From NCBI GenBank assembly GCA_016183805.1, contig JACPDX010000010.1:1-64000 (forward strand): a stretch of 64,000 bases of DNA, in the 5' to 3' direction. This DNA is from Bacteroidota bacterium (GTDB taxonomy: Bacteria; Bacteroidota; Bacteroidia; Flavobacteriales_E; Vicingaceae). Positions 1,917-12,340 of the stretch are shown piece by piece. The stretch's first letter is position 1. Each line of letters opens with the position of its first letter. Both the position numbers and the translations under genes were made by a program. Below the pieces are notes generated by a model. The model ran no database searches, was not told the origin of the DNA, and saw only the letters and a list, made by a program, of their open reading frames with translations.

Positions 1917-3695
1917 ATGCAAGAATCTATCCCCGAAATCGAAAATACCTTTGAAAGAGTTCTTCATGCCAACGAACGAATATTTCAAAATTATCTTGAA
2001 AATTTTTCCGGTTATCATCACGATTTACGAGATATGGCATCAACTTACAGTCATTTTAACACCAAAGTGTTGATTGACCCAAAAGAAATGGCAAAATTTC
2101 AAATCAACTATCTTCAATTTTTAGATAAACAACAAAAATTATTTGCAGAAACCATTACCCGACAAGATGGAAAACCATCTACTCCGATAATAAAACCAAA
2201 TGCAGATGACAAACGTTTTAGAGCTCCTGAATGGAATAATGACCCATTTTTTGATTACATTAAACAAAGTTATTTATTGGTTTCGGAATTGATGAGAAAC
2301 GTAATTGATGACTCGGAAATAGATGATAAGAAAAAACGAAAACTGCTTTTTTATACCAATCATTATATTGATGCGTTTTCGCCCACCAATTTTGCTGCAA
2401 CAAACCCCGAGGTAATTAAAAAAGCAAAGGAAACCAACGGCGAAAGTTTAAAAGAGGGTTTTTTAAATTTATTAACAGATATTGAAAAAGGTAGAATTAC
2501 CCAAACCGACGAAACAGCCTTTGAGGTTGGAAAAAACATTGCCATTACTCCCGGTGCGGTTATTTATCAAAACAATCTTATCCAATTAATACAATATTCG
2601 CCGGTCGGAAATGAAGTGTCGGAAATTCCTTTGCTTATTATTCCTCCGTGGATAAACAAATATTATATTCTCGACCTTCAACCCGAAAATTCGTTTGCCC
2701 GTTATGCAGTAGAAAAAGGATTTACCGTTTTTATGATTTCGTGGAAAAATCCGAGTAAAAAAATGAAAAATTATTCTTTCGACCATTATGTGGAAATGGG
2801 TGTAATGGATGCTATTAAAGCCATACAAAATATTACTGGGCAAGAAAAAATAAACACACTGGGTTATTGTTTAGGCGGAACATTGCAAGGAATAGCTTTA
2901 GCCATTATGCATGCAAAAAAAGAGGTTCCGGTTAACTCCGCAACATTTTTAGCAAGTATGCTCGATTTTACCGATGTGGGCCCTATGGGCGATGTTATAG
3001 ATCAAGCATTGGTTAGAAAACTGGAAAGGGGTGAATTGCAACAAGAAGGCGTAATGCACGGTCATGATATGGAAAAAGCGTTTAATCTTATCCGTTCAAA
3101 CGACCTGATTTGGAATTACGTAGTAAACAATTACCTGAAAGGAAATAAACCCACCGCCTTTGATGTTTTGTTCTGGACCAACGACAACACCAATCTACCG
3201 GCAAACATGTATATGTATTATTTACGACACATGATTCTTGAAAATAAACTGAGCCGAAAAAATGCACTACGAATTTGCGATACGCCTATAAATTTAGGAA
3301 AAATTGATACTCCTTCTCTTGTTATTGCGTTAAACGAAGACCATATTTCGCCGGCAGAAACAGCTTTTACCACCACCGAATTACTAAATGGTCCGGTTCA
3401 ATTTATTTTGGGCGACTCGGGACATGTTATGGGTGTTGCCAACCCTCCATCAAAGAAAAAATACGGGTATTGTACATCCAACCATTTGGGTTATGGTTTT
3501 AAAGCTTGGAAAGAAAGTGCTAAACACATCGAAGGAAGTTGGTGGCAACCTTGGAGCGAATGGTTAGAGACTCAATCAGGAAAAAAAATTAAATCGACTC
3601 CACAACTCGGAAATAAAAAATATAAAGTAATTGAAAATGCTCCGGGTACTTACGTGAAAGAAAAATGTAAAAAATGCCCGGAAGAGTTCTTTTAA
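1917..3695 (+). CDS. phaC: Class I poly(3-hydroxyalkanoate) synthase
   Basis: A 592-residue alpha/beta-hydrolase-fold polymerase that joins (R)-3-hydroxyacyl-CoA units into polyester and releases CoA. The lipase-like box is GYCLGG with nucleophile Cys318. Asp475 (ALNEDHISP) and His503 (DSGHVMG) complete the triad. The N-terminal PhaC domain (about residues 60-230) contains PEWNNDPFFDYIKQSYL, typical of the family. Length and sequence fit class I, which needs no PhaE or PhaR partner. The two phasin-like genes upstream and the reductase 21 nt downstream form a PHA locus. No beta-ketothiolase (phaA) is in the window. Confidence 0.95.
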   Translation: MQESIPEIENTFERVLHANERIFQNYLENFSGYHHDLRDMASTYSHFNTKVLIDPKEMAKFQINYLQFLDKQQKLFAETITRQDGKPSTPIIKPNADDKRFRAPEWNNDPFFDYIKQSYLLVSELMRNVIDDSEIDDKKKRKLLFYTNHYIDAFSPTNFAATNPEVIKKAKETNGESLKEGFLNLLTDIEKGRITQTDETAFEVGKNIAITPGAVIYQNNLIQLIQYSPVGNEVSEIPLLIIPPWINKYYILDLQPENSFARYAVEKGFTVFMISWKNPSKKMKNYSFDHYVEMGVMDAIKAIQNITGQEKINTLGYCLGGTLQGIALAIMHAKKEVPVNSATFLASMLDFTDVGPMGDVIDQALVRKLERGELQQEGVMHGHDMEKAFNLIRSNDLIWNYVVNNYLKGNKPTAFDVLFWTNDNTNLPANMYMYYLRHMILENKLSRKNALRICDTPINLGKIDTPSLVIALNEDHISPAETAFTTTELLNGPVQFILGDSGHVMGVANPPSKKKYGYCTSNHLGYGFKAWKESAKHIEGSWWQPWSEWLETQSGKKIKSTPQLGNKKYKVIENAPGTYVKEKCKKCPEEFF

Positions 3696-3716: not shown

Positions 3717-4484
3717 ATGAGAATACCAAACAACAAAGTAGCACTGGTTACCGGAGGAACAGGCGGAATTGGTACTGCTATTTGCGAAAGTCTTTACAAA
3801 GACGGTTTTATGGTAGTTGCCAACTACCGCGATTTTACTAAAGCCATGAAATGGCGTGAAGAAGCTAAAAAATGGAGAGACGACCAGCTAAAAATGGGTA
3901 TTGATGTAAAAGTGGTGGAAGGAAATGTATCCAATTATGCTTCGTGCGAAAGAATGATAAAAGAAATTGCCGAAAAAGTAGGTACTGTAGATGTATTGGT
4001 AAACAATGCAGGTATTACCCGCGATGCTCCGTTACATAAAATGACACCTCAGCAATGGTACGAAGTAATAGAGGCAAACATAAACAGCGTTTTTAACTGC
4101 TCTCGTTTGGTAATTGAACCTATGATAGAAAAAAAATGGGGGCGAATGATAAACATCTCATCCGTAAACGGACAAAAAGGACAATACGGACAAACCAACT
4201 ATGCCACAGCCAAATCGGGCATGTATGGGTTTAGTAAATCACTGGCATTGGAAGTAGCCAAAAAAGGCATTACGGTAAATTGTATTTCGCCGGGCTACAT
4301 AGCTACATCAATGGTAATGGCAATAAAGGAAGAAATTAGGGAGAAAATTGTTGCTCAAATACCTATGGGCAGATTAGGAACTCCTGAAGAAATTGGTAAA
4401 CTGGTTTCCTACCTTTCATCAAATGAAGCTGCATATATTACTGGAGCTAACATGGCAATTAACGGAGGTTTACACATGTATTAA
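3717..4484 (+). CDS. phaB: Acetoacetyl-CoA reductase (SDR family)
   Basis: A 255-residue short-chain dehydrogenase/reductase. The nucleotide-binding motif is TGGTGGIG (residues 12-19), followed by NNAG and the catalytic Ser plus YxxxK (YATAK). The C-terminus matches PhaB/FabG-type enzymes (GRLGTPEEIG ... ITGANMAINGGLHMY). It is expected to reduce acetoacetyl-CoA to (R)-3-hydroxybutyryl-CoA with NAD(P)H and so supply PhaC. A FabG-type role in fatty-acid synthesis cannot be excluded from sequence alone, but its position 21 nt after phaC and the GGLHMY ending favour PhaB. Confidence 0.9.
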   Translation: MRIPNNKVALVTGGTGGIGTAICESLYKDGFMVVANYRDFTKAMKWREEAKKWRDDQLKMGIDVKVVEGNVSNYASCERMIKEIAEKVGTVDVLVNNAGITRDAPLHKMTPQQWYEVIEANINSVFNCSRLVIEPMIEKKWGRMINISSVNGQKGQYGQTNYATAKSGMYGFSKSLALEVAKKGITVNCISPGYIATSMVMAIKEEIREKIVAQIPMGRLGTPEEIGKLVSYLSSNEAAYITGANMAINGGLHMY

Positions 4485-5627: not shown

Positions 5628-6680
5628 CTATTCAAATGGAACACCATCAGGCTCTCCAATATTACTTTCAAAAAACTCTTTATTCATTGTATTTGTCATA
5701 AAATCTTTTGCCGTACTGTCAATATAAATAATTTGATTTTCACTTTTCAAATTCAATTTGTTTTTGATATATGATATTTCTGTTTCCTTATCGTTTTCAA
5801 ATAGCGGAGCAACATTAATTATTCTAAGTTCACTTCTTGAATTTAGTGCTTGAGATAATATTATATTAACATAGTCATCAGCATATGAATAACCAATTAT
5901 TGTGATAATTTTAGCTTCATTAAAACAAGAATTTCTTAATATGGAAGAATAGTAAAAATATGGGTCAACCGAAGTCATTTTGTGTTGAATTCCAAATATT
6001 AACTCAGGTTCGGATTCTATTTTTTGACTTTTGAAAAGTCTATTTTCAGATAGATACCAATCAACTGAACCGTGAAGTTTGTACAAATTATAATGTTTCC
6101 CATCAATATTTTCAAAATTAGATTGATGCCATTCATTTGTCTCTTTAGTAAATCCTATTTCAATATTTTTTTCTTTCCCAATAATATTTTCGAAACACAA
6201 ATCATAATTGAGTGTAAAGACCTTCATTAAATTAGCTACATCAGCAGAAAGCGAAACAAAAGATTGATAATAGTTTGCATTATCATAACTTCTTAGTCCG
6301 ACCCATTCGTTTAATTGTTTCCTTATTAGCTTATGAAACTTCTTAATATTTTCAAAATTATTTCCAGCCAAATCAAGTAGCCTGATATTCCAAGTGCCAA
6401 TGAATGGATACATTATATTACTTTCTCTTTTTTCAATTTCAGTAATAACAATAAGTAACCGTTCTACATTAAAAGGCACATTAAATCTTCCAAGAATTCC
6501 ATCCGAATAATTTATACTACTTTTTAAGTAAAAATATAAATCCTTGTATGCTTTCCAGTCATTATGTTCGACTATTTTTTTTTCTATATCGTTAACCATT
6601 TCATTTGAATGAGGTATTCCCGCATCAACGCTTGCACCTGCACCAAAAAGAAATAGTAAATGCTCCCCTTTTATTTCCAT
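5628..6680 (-). CDS. Stand-alone SIR2-domain protein, Argonaute-associated effector
   Basis: A 350-residue protein with a SIR2-like NAD-binding fold and no signal peptide. The N-terminal GAGASVDAGIP (residues 13-23) is the dinucleotide-binding motif, FTLNYD (Asn158, Asp160) matches the sirtuin-type Asn/Asp pair, and KLHGSVDW carries the catalytic His203. A later IIGYSYADD segment completes the Rossmann-like core. In anti-phage systems such domains act as NADases that deplete the cell's NAD+. Length leaves no room for an APAZ domain, unlike the SIR2-APAZ subunit of short-Ago (SPARSA) systems. It is the last gene of the five-gene operon, 12 nt after the Argonaute gene, so the two are probably a sensor-effector pair. 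Confidence 0.85.
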   Translation of the reverse strand: MEIKGEHLLFLFGAGASVDAGIPHSNEMVNDIEKKIVEHNDWKAYKDLYFYLKSSINYSDGILGRFNVPFNVERLLIVITEIEKRESNIMYPFIGTWNIRLLDLAGNNFENIKKFHKLIRKQLNEWVGLRSYDNANYYQSFVSLSADVANLMKVFTLNYDLCFENIIGKEKNIEIGFTKETNEWHQSNFENIDGKHYNLYKLHGSVDWYLSENRLFKSQKIESEPELIFGIQHKMTSVDPYFYYSSILRNSCFNEAKIITIIGYSYADDYVNIILSQALNSRSELRIINVAPLFENDKETEISYIKNKLNLKSENQIIYIDSTAKDFMTNTMNKEFFESNIGEPDGVPFE

Positions 6681-6692
6681 TTTATTATTTTT

Positions 6693-8480
6693 TTATAAAA
6701 ACCATGGTTTATCATTCGAAATAGAATTTTCTTCATAGCCATCTATTTTTTCAAATGCTTCTGAATATTTAGCAATAATTTGAGAATAATAGATTGAAAT
6801 AGGTATAGATTTAGCATTAAATCCTCTCCAATTTGCACCTGATAAGTTTAAAACATCTTGTAAATACTTTCTTTCATCAAAACCTTTCTGATTCCCTAAA
6901 TTCAAAAATTGTATATGAACAGGATTTGCCAATCTTTTGTCAACGACTTCTTTTCCATAAAGTAACCCTTCAAACCAAACTAAATATTCATTGCGGGATA
7001 ATTTCACAAAACTACTTTCGTATGGTACAAATGTGTTGTGGAAACTATAACCAAAATATTTATTATCAAGATTTACTTTAATAGCTACAAATTCAATGTC
7101 ATCAATTTGTTTTATTGCTTCTGATATTGCAGAAATTTCATTCTGTTTAATTTTAAAAGGCAAATGAAGAACGCAGGTCTTATAATCACTCATTCTACTA
7201 TCCTTTAAAAGCTTAATTAAGTTAGACTTTAGCTTTTGCAAATAATTAGTTTCGGAGGTTTCATCTGCTAAAACTTCTAATGTCTTGTACAGACCACTTG
7301 AATCTAAACAAACCGTGTAAGCAAAGTATTTAGTAATCTCACCAGTTTCTTCATTTCTTTTATGAGAACTTCCAACCCCAAGTATCAAACAATTGTTATT
7401 ACTTGGTTTAACTACCCAAGGAATGCCTCCCATTTTAGCAAACATTGCTAATGCAACATTAGAAGTTGACCATTTTAAAGAGTTTTTTTCGCTTAGTTTA
7501 CGATAATTAACTACTTGTAAAGGGAGATTATTTTTTATGAAATTGTATTTCATAAAATAATAGTGGTTCGAAGCAACAATATCTTCTGTGTCAGTAGCAT
7601 AATCTTCGATGTAAATCCCAATAACTTTCTTATTTGGTTCAGTTTCTTGATATGTTTTTACCTTATCTACAATTGAAAGTAGTTGTTCATTAGAAAAACC
7701 TTCAATTTTAATTTGTTTTACATTGCTTGTATTTAATACAACGCCAAACATTTGCTCAAAGCCGGGAAAAGTTATTCCTTGAAATTGTGAATTTGCTGTA
7801 CTTTTATTACTAAAAATGTACTCCTTTTTATTAAGTTGAAAAACAGGTGTTTCTATAAGTTCTCTTTCAATATGTAATAAATTATTTTCCCCTTCTCTTA
7901 TTATTTGAATATTACTATAGACTTTATCTAAAAAAGATTGAATCAATCTAAATTTATCTGAATAATAATTTTTGTTGCTCCGTCCTTGGCTATCAAGACT
8001 TAAACTCAAAATTTGAACTTCCTTATCAAATTGTAATTCTTTATTTCTCGAAAATCTAAAGTCAATAATAAAGCCGAATCTTTTTTGCTCTTCAAAGTAA
8101 AAAGGTGATAAGTATATTATTTGTTTGCCTTTTACAAATTCGTGGATTGTAAACTCAATTTTTTCTTCTGTGAAACGTCTATAAACATTGTAGGGAAATG
8201 GACAACCTTTTATTGTTAATGTATTTAATAATTGTTCTGTTAAAAAACGTTTTGTGAGACCAATGGCATAAAAAGAATGGTTTTCAAATTCTTCAAAACC
8301 TTCTCTTGGTAAAAAAGATACCCAATAACCTTTTCTTTTTGTTAAATCGGAATTTTCTGGAAGATGATAGAAATAAATATCATCCTCCTTAGTATCTTCT
8401 TCTTGCTTTAGTTTTCTGAACACTTTAAAAGAAAAATCACTTTCAGAAATGGGTAATATATTTAATCTAATGTTTGCCAT
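6693..8480 (-). CDS. Prokaryotic Argonaute (N-like region, MID, degenerate PIWI)
   Basis: A 595-residue protein. The MID domain (about 280-355) contains HYYFMK, PLQVV and AMFAKMGGIPWVV. Y307, K311, Q322 and K349 sit at the spacing of the classical guide 5'-phosphate pocket. PIWI follows (about 355-595) and ends with IPISIYYSQIIAKY, the usual Argonaute C-terminal helix. Catalytic positions are lost: G370 in LGVGSS replaces the first Asp, P441 replaces the second, and Q567 replaces the last His/Asp. Residues 1-270 are N/linker-like (GFIIDFRF, LSLDSQGRSN) with no clear PAZ. Expected role: guided recognition of invader nucleic acid without cleavage, signalling to the SIR2 partner. Size is between short (about 450-500) and full long Argonautes; it best fits the inactive long-B type. 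The start lies 20 nt after the restriction gene. Confidence 0.85.
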   Translation of the reverse strand: MANIRLNILPISESDFSFKVFRKLKQEEDTKEDDIYFYHLPENSDLTKRKGYWVSFLPREGFEEFENHSFYAIGLTKRFLTEQLLNTLTIKGCPFPYNVYRRFTEEKIEFTIHEFVKGKQIIYLSPFYFEEQKRFGFIIDFRFSRNKELQFDKEVQILSLSLDSQGRSNKNYYSDKFRLIQSFLDKVYSNIQIIREGENNLLHIERELIETPVFQLNKKEYIFSNKSTANSQFQGITFPGFEQMFGVVLNTSNVKQIKIEGFSNEQLLSIVDKVKTYQETEPNKKVIGIYIEDYATDTEDIVASNHYYFMKYNFIKNNLPLQVVNYRKLSEKNSLKWSTSNVALAMFAKMGGIPWVVKPSNNNCLILGVGSSHKRNEETGEITKYFAYTVCLDSSGLYKTLEVLADETSETNYLQKLKSNLIKLLKDSRMSDYKTCVLHLPFKIKQNEISAISEAIKQIDDIEFVAIKVNLDNKYFGYSFHNTFVPYESSFVKLSRNEYLVWFEGLLYGKEVVDKRLANPVHIQFLNLGNQKGFDERKYLQDVLNLSGANWRGFNAKSIPISIYYSQIIAKYSEAFEKIDGYEENSISNDKPWFL

Positions 8481-8500: not shown

Positions 8501-9361
8501 TTAATCATTTTCTGTTTTAATCGTAATCAATTTGCAATCCATTAAATGAACAGGGTTATTGGGGTTTTTAATTTTAACGGCTTGAATGCTTAATTTATCA
8601 TTAACCGATTTTTCTATTTTATTTCTGCTTTCGATAGGAAACGAATTGTATTTGTCGTTGGGTACAATTGCCACCAATTGAAACTTTAATTTAGTATTAT
8701 AGGTGTAAACATAGTTGAACACTTTTACTGGTGGTTGCAATAACCACATCCCTCTAATTCTCATGTTGGTAATTTTTAAAGGGTCAACATAATTAACCCG
8801 TCCCAGCTCTTTTGTTTCGGAGAAATTTATCTCCGGTGTATTTTCAAGGCTTTCTGCAACAGTGGCTTTTAAATTGGTATAAACATCATCGTCTGCTGCA
8901 TAAATATTGCCATAAACTAACCAAAGTGACGAAAGTATTTTACTGCTTTTTGGAACGTGTCCAATGGCATAAATAATATCTTTTTCTTCCCATTTTTCGC
9001 AAGTTCTACAATGGTTATTAATTAGGTGGCTATTGGCAAAAAGTTTCGCTTTTGGATGCGAACTATTCAATTGTAATTCCGATAAAATGGATTCGGTCTT
9101 TTTAACTTCGATAGCATCTCCACCTTTAATCATCAAGTCTGGTGGTCTTGTTTGGCTTCCTTCATAAGAAAATACTTCGGCATACTTGGTTATTTTTGTC
9201 GATTCGTCAGTAGTGTTAAAATTGTTTGAAAAAGCGTTTTTTACAAAAATTTCTAATCCATCACCAACACTTGTTATTCTATTATTACCAAACGTTATTT
9301 GATCAACATTTAAAATCGGGAGTTCAGCAATATGTAATATTGCTTCTAAAATATTTGTCAT
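8501..9361 (-). CDS. Type II restriction endonuclease, NgoPII family
   Basis: A 286-residue nuclease. The active site is PD-(D/E)XK: Asp75 in [10 protein letters not shown] and E85-V-K87 in GDAIEVKK. The following [16 protein letters not shown] and the Cys pair region [10 protein letters not shown] match the NgoPII-type family as I know it. NgoPII itself cuts GGCC; the specificity here cannot be read from sequence. The start ATG overlaps the stop of the methyltransferase gene (ATGA), so translation is likely coupled and the toxic nuclease follows its protective partner. It is followed after 20 nt by the Argonaute gene. Confidence 0.85.
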
Positions 9362-10398
9362 ACTGCCAAGGCTTCTTTTCTAGTTTCTGTAATTTGTTTA
9401 ATTAATGCATTTTCATTAATCTGCTGCTTAATGCTTTCGGCTAAAAATTTTGCAAGATTAACCGGAACAGCATTTCCTATCATTTTATAACCCGCCGGAA
9501 CGCTAGTATAATGGAAAATAAAATTGTCGGGAAATGTTTGTATTCTCGCACATTCTCTTACACTTAATCTTCTGTACAATTGTTCTTTGCCTGGCACAAA
9601 AACTCTAATGTTTTGTTCAATAAATTTCATTTTTGGTGCTTGTGGATGGATGGGAGCATGCCTACCTCCTGCTTGTATGGTAAATGATTGTTCGTTCCAG
9701 CAACGTACACGATTTCTAGACATAAAAATGGTAGAAAAATCGCCAATCATATATTCGTGATTTGGTACAGCACAAGTATTTCCGTTTGTTTTATTGTAGG
9801 GCAATGCAGGAACAACATTATCCTTTAAATCATAAATGGTTTCTTCTAAAGTTATTTTTGGAAAATTTGGTTTTGGAAATTGAAACGTAAAATTCAAATC
9901 TTTTCTAATTCCAATAAAAAAAATACGTTTTCTGTCTTGAGGTACATTGTAATCAGATGCGTTAAGCATATCAAACGATAATTCATAACCAACCCCTGCA
10001 TTTCTGAACAATTCTTTAATGTTGTTTAATGCTTCCGAATGCCTACCCAATAACATTCCACTAACATTTTCAGCTAAAAAGAATTTAGGTTGTTTTGCTT
10101 CAAGAATACGGATAAAATCATAAAATAATTGACCTCTTTTGTCATTAATTCCTTTCATAGCACCTGCTTCACTCCAACTTTGACAAGGAGGTCCTCCAAT
10201 TATTCCGTCACATTCAGGCACTTCATTTGTTGGTATGTTTACAATACTCCTTCTGTCTAAAATTGAATGTGGATGGTTCTTTTCGTAGGTTTCCCAAATT
10301 TCTTTGTCGTATTCGTTAGCCCAAATAACATTAAATCCTGCTTTTTGAAAACCTAGGTCGAGACCACCTGCACCGGCAAAAAAGGAGACTATATTCAT
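9358..10398 (-). CDS. DNA (cytosine-5) methyltransferase of type II R-M system
   Basis: A 346-residue m5C methyltransferase. Motif I is [11 protein letters not shown] (residues 7-17, SAM binding). Motif IV is [12 protein letters not shown] with catalytic Cys72, motif VI ENVSG, motif [14 protein letters not shown], motif [17 protein letters not shown], and motif [15 protein letters not shown]. The target-recognition region lies between VIII and IX (about residues 175-275). It protects the host site from the NgoPII-type nuclease encoded next. Its ATG overlaps the stop of the upstream HTH gene by 4 nt (ATGA). All motifs are intact, so it should be active. Confidence 0.95.
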
Positions 10399-10721
10399 AT
10401 TATTGTTAATTTTTTTGATTTTAAATATTCTACTTTTTGTTCTGCAAGAATTAACGTTTCATTATTGCAGTTGTTTTCATAAATTTTTTTGGCAATGATG
10501 TCGCTAAAAAATTCTGTTCTTAGACTTGCAATATCAAGATTAAAAACCTCCGCCAAAAGATGAAGTCGTTTTTCGTCAAATTCTCTTTTGTTGTTTTCAA
10601 TTTTACTCAAATTAGCAGAGTCCAAATCAAGCTTTGCTGCAAGTTGAGTAAGTGTCAACTCGTTTTCTTTCCTAAGCCGTTTAATGTATTCTCCAAATAT
10701 TTCTTTCATTTGACTTGTCAT
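10395..10721 (-). CDS. XRE-family controller (C-protein-like) regulator
   Basis: A 108-residue protein with an N-terminal helix-turn-helix (about residues 10-65: [20 protein letters not shown], then [13 protein letters not shown]) and a short helical tail. Small XRE proteins at the head of type II R-M operons are typically controller proteins that time methyltransferase and nuclease expression. It is the first gene of the five-gene unit. The promoter and candidate operator repeats overlap its start codon, which suggests autoregulation. Confidence 0.85.
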
Positions 10722-10736
10722 TTTTTGACAAATTTA
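10711..10736 (-). promoter_or_regulatory. Leaderless-type promoter and operator of defence operon
   Basis: On the minus strand TAAATTTG (10736-10729) matches the Bacteroidota -7 box TAnnTTTG exactly and lies only 7 nt before the ATG (10721-10719), so transcription would start at or within a few bases of the start codon. A TTG about 18 nt further upstream could serve as the -33 element. Inverted repeats overlap this site: TGACttGTCA at 10711-10720 and TGTCA-N5-TGACA at 10716-10730. They are plausible controller-protein binding boxes. Confidence 0.6.
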
Positions 10737-11025
10737 CAATAATTTTATTTTTTCGCAAGTGTTATTTTTGATTTTTTTATCTATAAAACTTAATCGTTTT
10801 TTTTTGACCGATTTGTTAAGTTCGAACCCAACAAAACCAACAATTAAATATCATGCATTCCAAATGTAGTTATTCCATTCCACTTGGTTTTGTTTTTTAA
10901 GTTAATATTTAATACCAATAAAAAATAGTGGTTACACTAACCACAATCATCGTTAACCAACAACAGGAGTTATCTAAAAATTGGTAAAAGTGTTGGTACT
11001 TTGTTTAAACTAAAATTATAAAACG
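10737..11025. other. Intergenic region between defence operon and stress operon
   Basis: No gene is seen in this 289-nt divergent spacer. It holds an 11-bp inverted repeat (AACAAAACCAA at 10830-10840 and TTGGTTTTGTT at 10884-10894, right arm followed by a T-tract) and a perfect 7-bp hairpin GTGGTTA-cac-TAACCAC (10928-10944). The second lies about 80 nt before the DUF2267 gene and could be a regulatory site. Confidence 0.5.
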
Positions 11026-11475
11026 ATGGCTTTAAATTTTGACAAAATAGCAATAAAAGGAAATGAATTTTTAAAAGACCTCGCTAAAGAATTGGGCTAC
11101 CCCGAAGACACCAACAAAGCAGGCAGGGTACTAAAAGCCATTTTACATGCGTTGCGAAACCAATTAACTGTTGAAGAATCTGTTCAGCTCATGGCACAGT
11201 TTCCGTTGTTTTTAAAAGCAGTTTATGTTGAGAACTGGAGTTTACGCAAACAAGATAACAAACCCCGAAACATGACCGAATTTATTCATGAAATTAAAAA
11301 AATAAACAAACAAACCGCCCAACACGATTTTAAAACCGACGACGACGTTGATCATGCCATTGCAGTGGTATTTATGTCGTTACGAAAATATGTTTCGTTG
11401 GGCGAACTCGAAGATATAAAAGCAGTTTTACCAAAAGATTTAAAATTGATTGTAAACAATGTTTTAATGATTTAA
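11026..11475 (+). CDS. DUF2267 family protein
   Basis: A 149-residue helical protein with the DUF2267 pattern: N-terminal FLKDLAKELG, GRVLKAILHALRNQLTVEES, then LPLFLKAVYVENW-like and DDVDHAIAVVFMSLRKYVS. The family's biochemical role is unknown. It is often found with stress and universal stress proteins, as here: it leads a tight operon with a tandem UspA protein (4-nt gap), a Dps-like protein and acetyl-CoA synthetase. No signal peptide. Confidence 0.85.
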   Translation: MALNFDKIAIKGNEFLKDLAKELGYPEDTNKAGRVLKAILHALRNQLTVEESVQLMAQFPLFLKAVYVENWSLRKQDNKPRNMTEFIHEIKKINKQTAQHDFKTDDDVDHAIAVVFMSLRKYVSLGELEDIKAVLPKDLKLIVNNVLMI

Positions 11476-11479
11476 AAAA

Positions 11480-12340
11480 ATGAAAACGCTACTGGTTCCT
11501 ACCGATTTTTCGCCCATCAGCAGAAATGCGTTGGCGTATGCTGTAGGTTTAGCCGAAAAACTTGGTGCAAAAATTGTGTTGCTCCACGCCTATCATACTT
11601 TCCCTATTGACATCGACCCTGGATTACTTGTGAAAGAATACCGTGAAGAGGTTGAGTTGTTTAAAAAAGTATCAGACATACAATTAAAAGCACTGTGCGA
11701 AGAAATTGAAAATACATCGACCTGTAAATGTGATGCCATTAGTTTACAAGGTTTGGCAAAGGATGTAATTGTTGAATATGCCAACGATACCAACCCCGAT
11801 TTACTGGTAATTGGAACTGAAAACCTGTTGCCTATGGAACGTATTATTTACGGAACAATTACCGGAAGAGTAATAAAAGATGTTGATTGTACTTTATTGG
11901 TAATTCCCGAAAGGGCTAAATATACTACTCCAAAAAAAATAGCCTTTGCCATAGATTATCACGACAGCGATTTGGATGAAATACAATTTGTAGAACAACT
12001 TGCAAAAAAATTTAAATCGGAAACTCACATTGTACATGTTATTTCGGATGAAGAAGATGAGGATTTTGAAGATTATTACTTTACAAAAACGAAAACCGAA
12101 ATCAAAAAATTTGTTTCGAAAAACCACACCATTTTTAAGTTGATTAAGGGTAAAAATATTACTTCAGAACTTAAAAAATACATCACTGACGAACACATCG
12201 ACATTTTTTCGGTGGCAAAAACTAAAAAAACATTTTTAGAACGCTTATTCTCCGGCAGTGTATCACAAAAACTGTTTTACCGCACCAACATACCCTTACT
12301 GATTTTTGAAGCTAAAGATACTCCCAAAGATTTGATATAA
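11480..12340 (+). CDS. Tandem universal stress protein (UspA)
   Basis: A 286-residue protein with two Usp domains. Domain 1 (1-150) starts MKTLLVPTDFSPISRNALAYA and has the nucleotide-binding-type end GTENLLPMERIIYGTITGRV. Domain 2 (about 150-280) starts KKIAFAIDYHDSD and ends SVSQKLFYRTNIPLLIF. Domain 2 is more divergent. Such proteins respond to starvation, oxidative or redox stress in the cytoplasm. It is in an operon between the DUF2267 and Dps-like genes. Confidence 0.92.
   Translation: MKTLLVPTDFSPISRNALAYAVGLAEKLGAKIVLLHAYHTFPIDIDPGLLVKEYREEVELFKKVSDIQLKALCEEIENTSTCKCDAISLQGLAKDVIVEYANDTNPDLLVIGTENLLPMERIIYGTITGRVIKDVDCTLLVIPERAKYTTPKKIAFAIDYHDSDLDEIQFVEQLAKKFKSETHIVHVISDEEDEDFEDYYFTKTKTEIKKFVSKNHTIFKLIKGKNITSELKKYITDEHIDIFSVAKTKKTFLERLFSGSVSQKLFYRTNIPLLIFEAKDTPKDLI

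Follow-up and report, generated by a model that had tools for sequence, protein, structure and literature searches.

A SIR2-paired long-B Argonaute encoded without 41 residues of its MID domain at the end of a predicted restriction operon in a Bacteroidota genome

The window analyzed here is the whole 64,000-nucleotide stretch from the start of contig JACPDX010000010.1 (assembly GCA_016183805.1). It carries a predicted operon of 5 genes in the order XRE regulator, C5 methylase, NgoPII endonuclease, Argonaute (Ago), and SIR2, spaced by 4-bp overlaps and then by gaps of 20 and 12 bp.

10395..10721, minus strand: XRE-type helix-turn-helix regulator of 108 aa that opens the predicted operon (Pfam HTH_3)
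9358..10398, minus strand: C5-cytosine DNA methyltransferase of 346 aa (Pfam DNA_methylase, E = 8.6e-99)
8501..9361, minus strand: NgoPII-type restriction endonuclease of 286 aa (Pfam RE_NgoPII, E = 3.9e-111)
6693..8480, minus strand: long-B Argonaute of 595 aa, probably PAZ-less (PADLOC pAgo_II, Pfam Piwi)
5628..6680, minus strand: bAgaS, a full-length SIR2-domain effector of 350 aa (PADLOC Aga_SIR2, Pfam SIR2_2)

By their Pfam families, the methylase and the endonuclease form a putative type II restriction-modification system. Scans for promoters and terminators at the locus returned no more sites than in shuffles, and no short repeats marking a mobile element were found at the operon edges. 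In three genomes of the same genus, the Ago is absent together with the DUF2267 gene found on one side of the operon here, and the pyrophosphatase gene on the opposite side is retained, a pattern in keeping with a variable region.

Re-derivation of the Ago gene returned the coordinates, strand, and frame given in an earlier sequence-only reading of this DNA, whose Argonaute call was borne out by PADLOC (pAgo_II Class II, E = 1.9e-235) and Pfam (Piwi, E = 2.9e-14). The PADLOC match and the PDB sequence matches, headed by EcAgo and AfAgo, place the protein, the only Ago copy in its genome, in the long-B family. Its nearest relative is encoded at locus L002, from a Bacteroidetes MAG. AlphaFold models of the window Ago (7-row alignment; mean pLDDT 53.6) and of the intact L002 Ago (6-row alignment; mean pLDDT 51.2) were both too poor to superpose. 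When both were searched with Foldseek and VIA-align, Argonautes ranked top, and the usable match was confined to the N-terminal part, residues 1–218 of the low-confidence L002 model aligning with the PAZ-less AfAgo-N (Z approximately 9). This match and the length of the protein suggest that the window Ago is probably PAZ-less, with N-L1-L2 joined to MID.

The functional residues were placed in an alignment of 18 Agos, comprising the window copy and 17 relatives that include distant long-B pAgos.

7434..7562, minus strand: MID 5'-phosphate pocket residues Y307, K311, Q322, and K349 (invariant in the 18 aligned Agos)
7371..7373, minus strand: G370, the first catalytic PIWI position, non-acidic (Gly in 18 of 18 rows)
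7158..7160, minus strand: P441, the second PIWI aspartate position (Pro for the 11 closest Agos; the remaining 7 carry Thr or Tyr)
6780..6782, minus strand: Q567, the last position of the PIWI tetrad (Q, E, S, or K in relatives, never Asp or His)

The alignment confirmed the dead PIWI domain that had been proposed from these 3 positions: none of the window residues is acidic, Asp does not occur at any of the 3 in the 17 relatives, and the whole aligned set is devoid of the catalytic tetrad. The 4 MID residues singled out at the same time are also present, with a spacing that fits Y463/K467/Q478/K506 of RsAgo (PMC6299218); YKQK is kept in every relative, and the C-terminal L595 is invariant as well (18/18 rows). 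Since both features are common to all 17 relatives, and an inactive PIWI in all long-B pAgos and Y-K-Q-K as the usual 5'-phosphate set have been published (Ryazansky et al., PMC6299218), the combination of dead PIWI and YKQK is a correct observation that is ordinary for the long-B family.

The SIR2 gene, which the earlier reading did not include, follows the Ago on the same strand at a distance of 12 bp and matches PADLOC Aga_SIR2 (Class II, E = 2.1e-146). Its product keeps N158 and H203, both invariant in the SIR2 alignment, and N158 sits in an FTLNYD motif, presumably the one containing the Asn that was replaced in the N155A variant of GbbAgaS (PMC10620215). Each of the 10 relatives in Ago alignment A1 has an adjacent, same-strand Ago–SIR2 pair, as do L012, L023, and L024, the association being conserved across Bacteroidota and in one cyanobacterium. 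By its sequence, the window pair is a BPAS (long-B pAgo plus SIR2), a known kind of system, and its SIR2 is predicted to be an NAD-destroying enzyme. For the tested BPAS member, GbBPAS, Song et al. (2023, PMC10620215) reported that GbAgaS alone kills E. coli and GbAgo suppresses the killing, that the Ago and SIR2 proteins co-purify, that the pair depletes NAD+ in the presence of an invading plasmid carrying the CloDF13 origin, and that SIR2 N155A abolishes the effect. A ThsA-like Sir2 is encoded downstream of some long-B pAgos (PMC10954474). An alternative in line with the earlier reading is that the Ago silences on its own, binding DNA or RNA by means of guides under selection for binding and not for cleavage, and that it has no effector. 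This account agrees with the dead PIWI and the YKQK motif and with the finding that RsAgo, placed in a foreign host, reduces the expression of plasmid genes (PMC10620215). However, a SIR2 gene so close downstream, and conserved beside the Ago in Bacteroidota and a cyanobacterium, argues against such a silencer, which we regard as the least probable of the alternatives; given the SIR2 partner, cleavage by the Ago would not be needed.

A catalytically dead long-B Ago being already known, what sets the window copy apart is the loss of 41 residues from its MID domain.

7772..7774, minus strand: junction of a 123-nt in-frame deletion, with 41 aa lost after I236 (breakpoint comparison with L002)

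When its DNA is aligned with that of L002, the window copy has a single gap of 123 nt, clean and located after codon 236, with an ambiguity or microhomology of 2 nt at the breakpoint (window + 7772–7774). The residues absent from the window Ago are RNYGPLQKIDKEILFVFIFEDRFKSFANELYLSLTGKSNPG, a stretch that takes in the conserved RNYGP loop as well as what is predicted to be the initial strand and helix of MID (strand 249–256 and helix 257–270 in the low-confidence L002 model). In a profile alignment, the start of the deleted segment falls on AF1318 residues 30–67, which we take to be the start of the MID domain, and the PADLOC profile breaks likewise, its best stretch running from protein residue 237 (profile position 269). 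The segment is recognizable in 17/17 relatives, distant long-B pAgos included, and none shares the deletion. Compared to the 595 residues of the window Ago, those of L002 and L003 to L006 have 636 and that of L007 has 637, most others having 630 to 643 and one 759. The window MID domain retains YKQK and lacks the beginning of the domain, and because of these missing residues the guide-binding pocket, described as intact in the sequence-only reading, is unsupported as such.

The deletion could be genuine damage or could stem from an error of assembly. The latter may apply because the genome is a draft of 109 contigs; if assembly or binning had created the gap, the true gene would encode approximately 636 residues and belong to an ordinary intact BPAS. 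The absence of the deletion from every relative is consistent with this account, as is the remainder of the gene, which is intact and was formerly under strong constraint, but the junction is clean and in frame, its microhomology amounts to only 2 nt, it has no large repeat that an assembler could have collapsed, and the genome has only one Ago copy. We consider an artefact possible, although rather doubtful. Should the deletion be real, this copy offers a natural experiment on whether restraint of the SIR2 effector requires the MID fold or whether that fold is needed only for sensing invaders.

Both genes of the pair were under strong purifying constraint, which for the Ago may predate the deletion. 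Between the window and L002, dN/dS was 0.039 for the Ago and 0.048 for SIR2, and after outgroup polarization the window branch carried, for the Ago, 24 synonymous against 4 nonsynonymous changes and, for SIR2, 26 against 6. Selection for guided binding without cleavage had been suggested for this gene; such binding is a known behavior of the long-B family (PMC6299218, PMC10620215), and the low dN/dS value agrees with purifying selection, so the suggestion stands for the family; for this copy it is less certain, since MID is truncated and the constraint may be older than the truncation. The same values enter a further alternative, in which the Ago still works at 595 residues because its MID tolerates the loss, so that guide binding goes on and the system is fully active. 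The low dN/dS on the window branch, the conserved pocket residues and C-terminal Leu, and the intact partner SIR2 speak for this possibility. Against it, the low dN/dS could have arisen before the deletion, and the lost loop, predicted core strand, and helix are present in all 17 relatives; a working variant is accordingly unlikely in our estimation.

Our preferred interpretation, to which we assign a probability of approximately 0.55, is that a BPAS abortive-infection system closes the predicted XRE-methylase-restriction operon at this locus, its guide sensor recently damaged and its SIR2 effector intact. In the intact family, the non-cutting Ago would load a 5'-phosphorylated RNA guide in MID, and the guide-loaded Ago would recognize invader DNA and then release or activate its SIR2 partner. 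SIR2 would deplete NAD+ and the cell would stop, plasmid-triggered NAD+ loss and death being known from GbBPAS and extended here to the window by inference. The deletion is seen in the sequence, and guide loading by the window Ago would probably be impaired because the first MID strand-helix unit is lost, while the truncated protein would probably still bind SIR2 and restrain it, since the SIR2 gene is full length. We counted against damage to the sensor that the pocket has retained its 4 side chains and the protein its C-terminal Leu, and that both AlphaFold models are poor. A variant in which the truncated Ago, no longer using guides, holds the SIR2 NADase in check independently of them, and in which the trigger comes from the co-transcribed restriction system or from the failure of that system, appears very improbable to us.

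Among known systems, GbBPAS (PMC10620215) resembles the window in that the gene of a catalytically inactive long-B Ago is directly followed, within one operon, by that of a SIR2_2 protein; the window differs in its missing MID residues and in the restriction cassette upstream. EbAgo of Epilithonimonas bovis (WP_076783222.1, Fig. 6 of PMC10954474), named among the single-chain long-B pAgos in that work, is likewise a single chain with a SIR2 gene downstream; unlike the window Ago, it has 636 residues with the MID segment present and is accompanied by a type IIG restriction cassette, not NgoPII. Locus L003 is from Epilithonimonas bovis, and its Ago is 81% identical to the window Ago. AfAgo/AfAgo-N (PMC10954474) shares the long-B architecture, PAZ-less as is probable for the window Ago, together with the YKQK pocket and the C-terminal Leu, but is made of 2 chains, and the downstream gene Af1317 encodes another effector type, not SIR2. 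RsAgo and EcAgo (BPAN) are also long-B proteins with an inactive PIWI, whereas their effector is a nuclease and the PAZ of RsAgo is reduced. SPARSA (short pAgo plus SIR2-APAZ) was considered and rejected: there too an inactive Ago controls a SIR2 NADase, as homology predicts for the window, but the SPARSA Ago is short and its SIR2 is fused to APAZ, whereas the window SIR2 (350 aa) is standalone with no APAZ fusion and the window Ago carries its own N-terminal half.

Within 60 genomes near that of the window, its own included, only 3 others matched, all distantly. We found no relatives in viral contigs or in phages; a plasmid search yielded 4 whole-query relatives, 3 from Hymenobacter and 1 from Leptolyngbya. 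L018, L019, L020, and L021 are BPAS pairs on large plasmids of these 2 genera, and at L020 a TIR-domain gene lies downstream of the pair.

The L002 and L003 operons also begin with XRE genes, with which the window XRE shares 35% to 39% identity. At L002, L003, and L004 the order is XRE, type IIG enzyme-methylase, Eco57I-type methylase, Ago, and SIR2 (families scanned at L002 only). An MmeI-type enzyme and a small gene precede the Ago at L019 and L020 (families scanned at L019 only), a DrmD-like helicase lies just upstream of the BPAS at L036 with a type III methylase nearby, and L005 has a PDDEXK nuclease gene at the locus. BPAS was thus seen directly behind restriction-type genes of 4 kinds (NgoPII, Eco57I-type IIG, MmeI-type IIG, and DrmD-like helicase), and no restriction-type genes were found directly upstream at L007, L018, L021, L034, or L035. 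The occurrence of BPAS behind different restriction cassettes in the XRE-led operons of the window, L002, L003, and L004, which share the same outline, suggests layered defence; the arrangement may also reflect nothing beyond defence-island clustering.

Other genes were noted beside BPAS pairs. After the L002 pair, several small genes occupy 9393–12241, some of them TIR-like by eye. An NrtR-type NUDIX regulator adjoins the pair at 2 distant loci (L007, 3165–5906; L021, 3140–3829), and at L007 the Ago is preceded by a Band 7 gene and also by a weak match to NAD kinase; the regulator at both loci and these L007 neighbors may tie BPAS to NAD control. Elsewhere in the window, a PhaC-type polyhydroxyalkanoate synthase gene (1917–3692) is adjacent to an SDR-like reductase frame (3717–4484).
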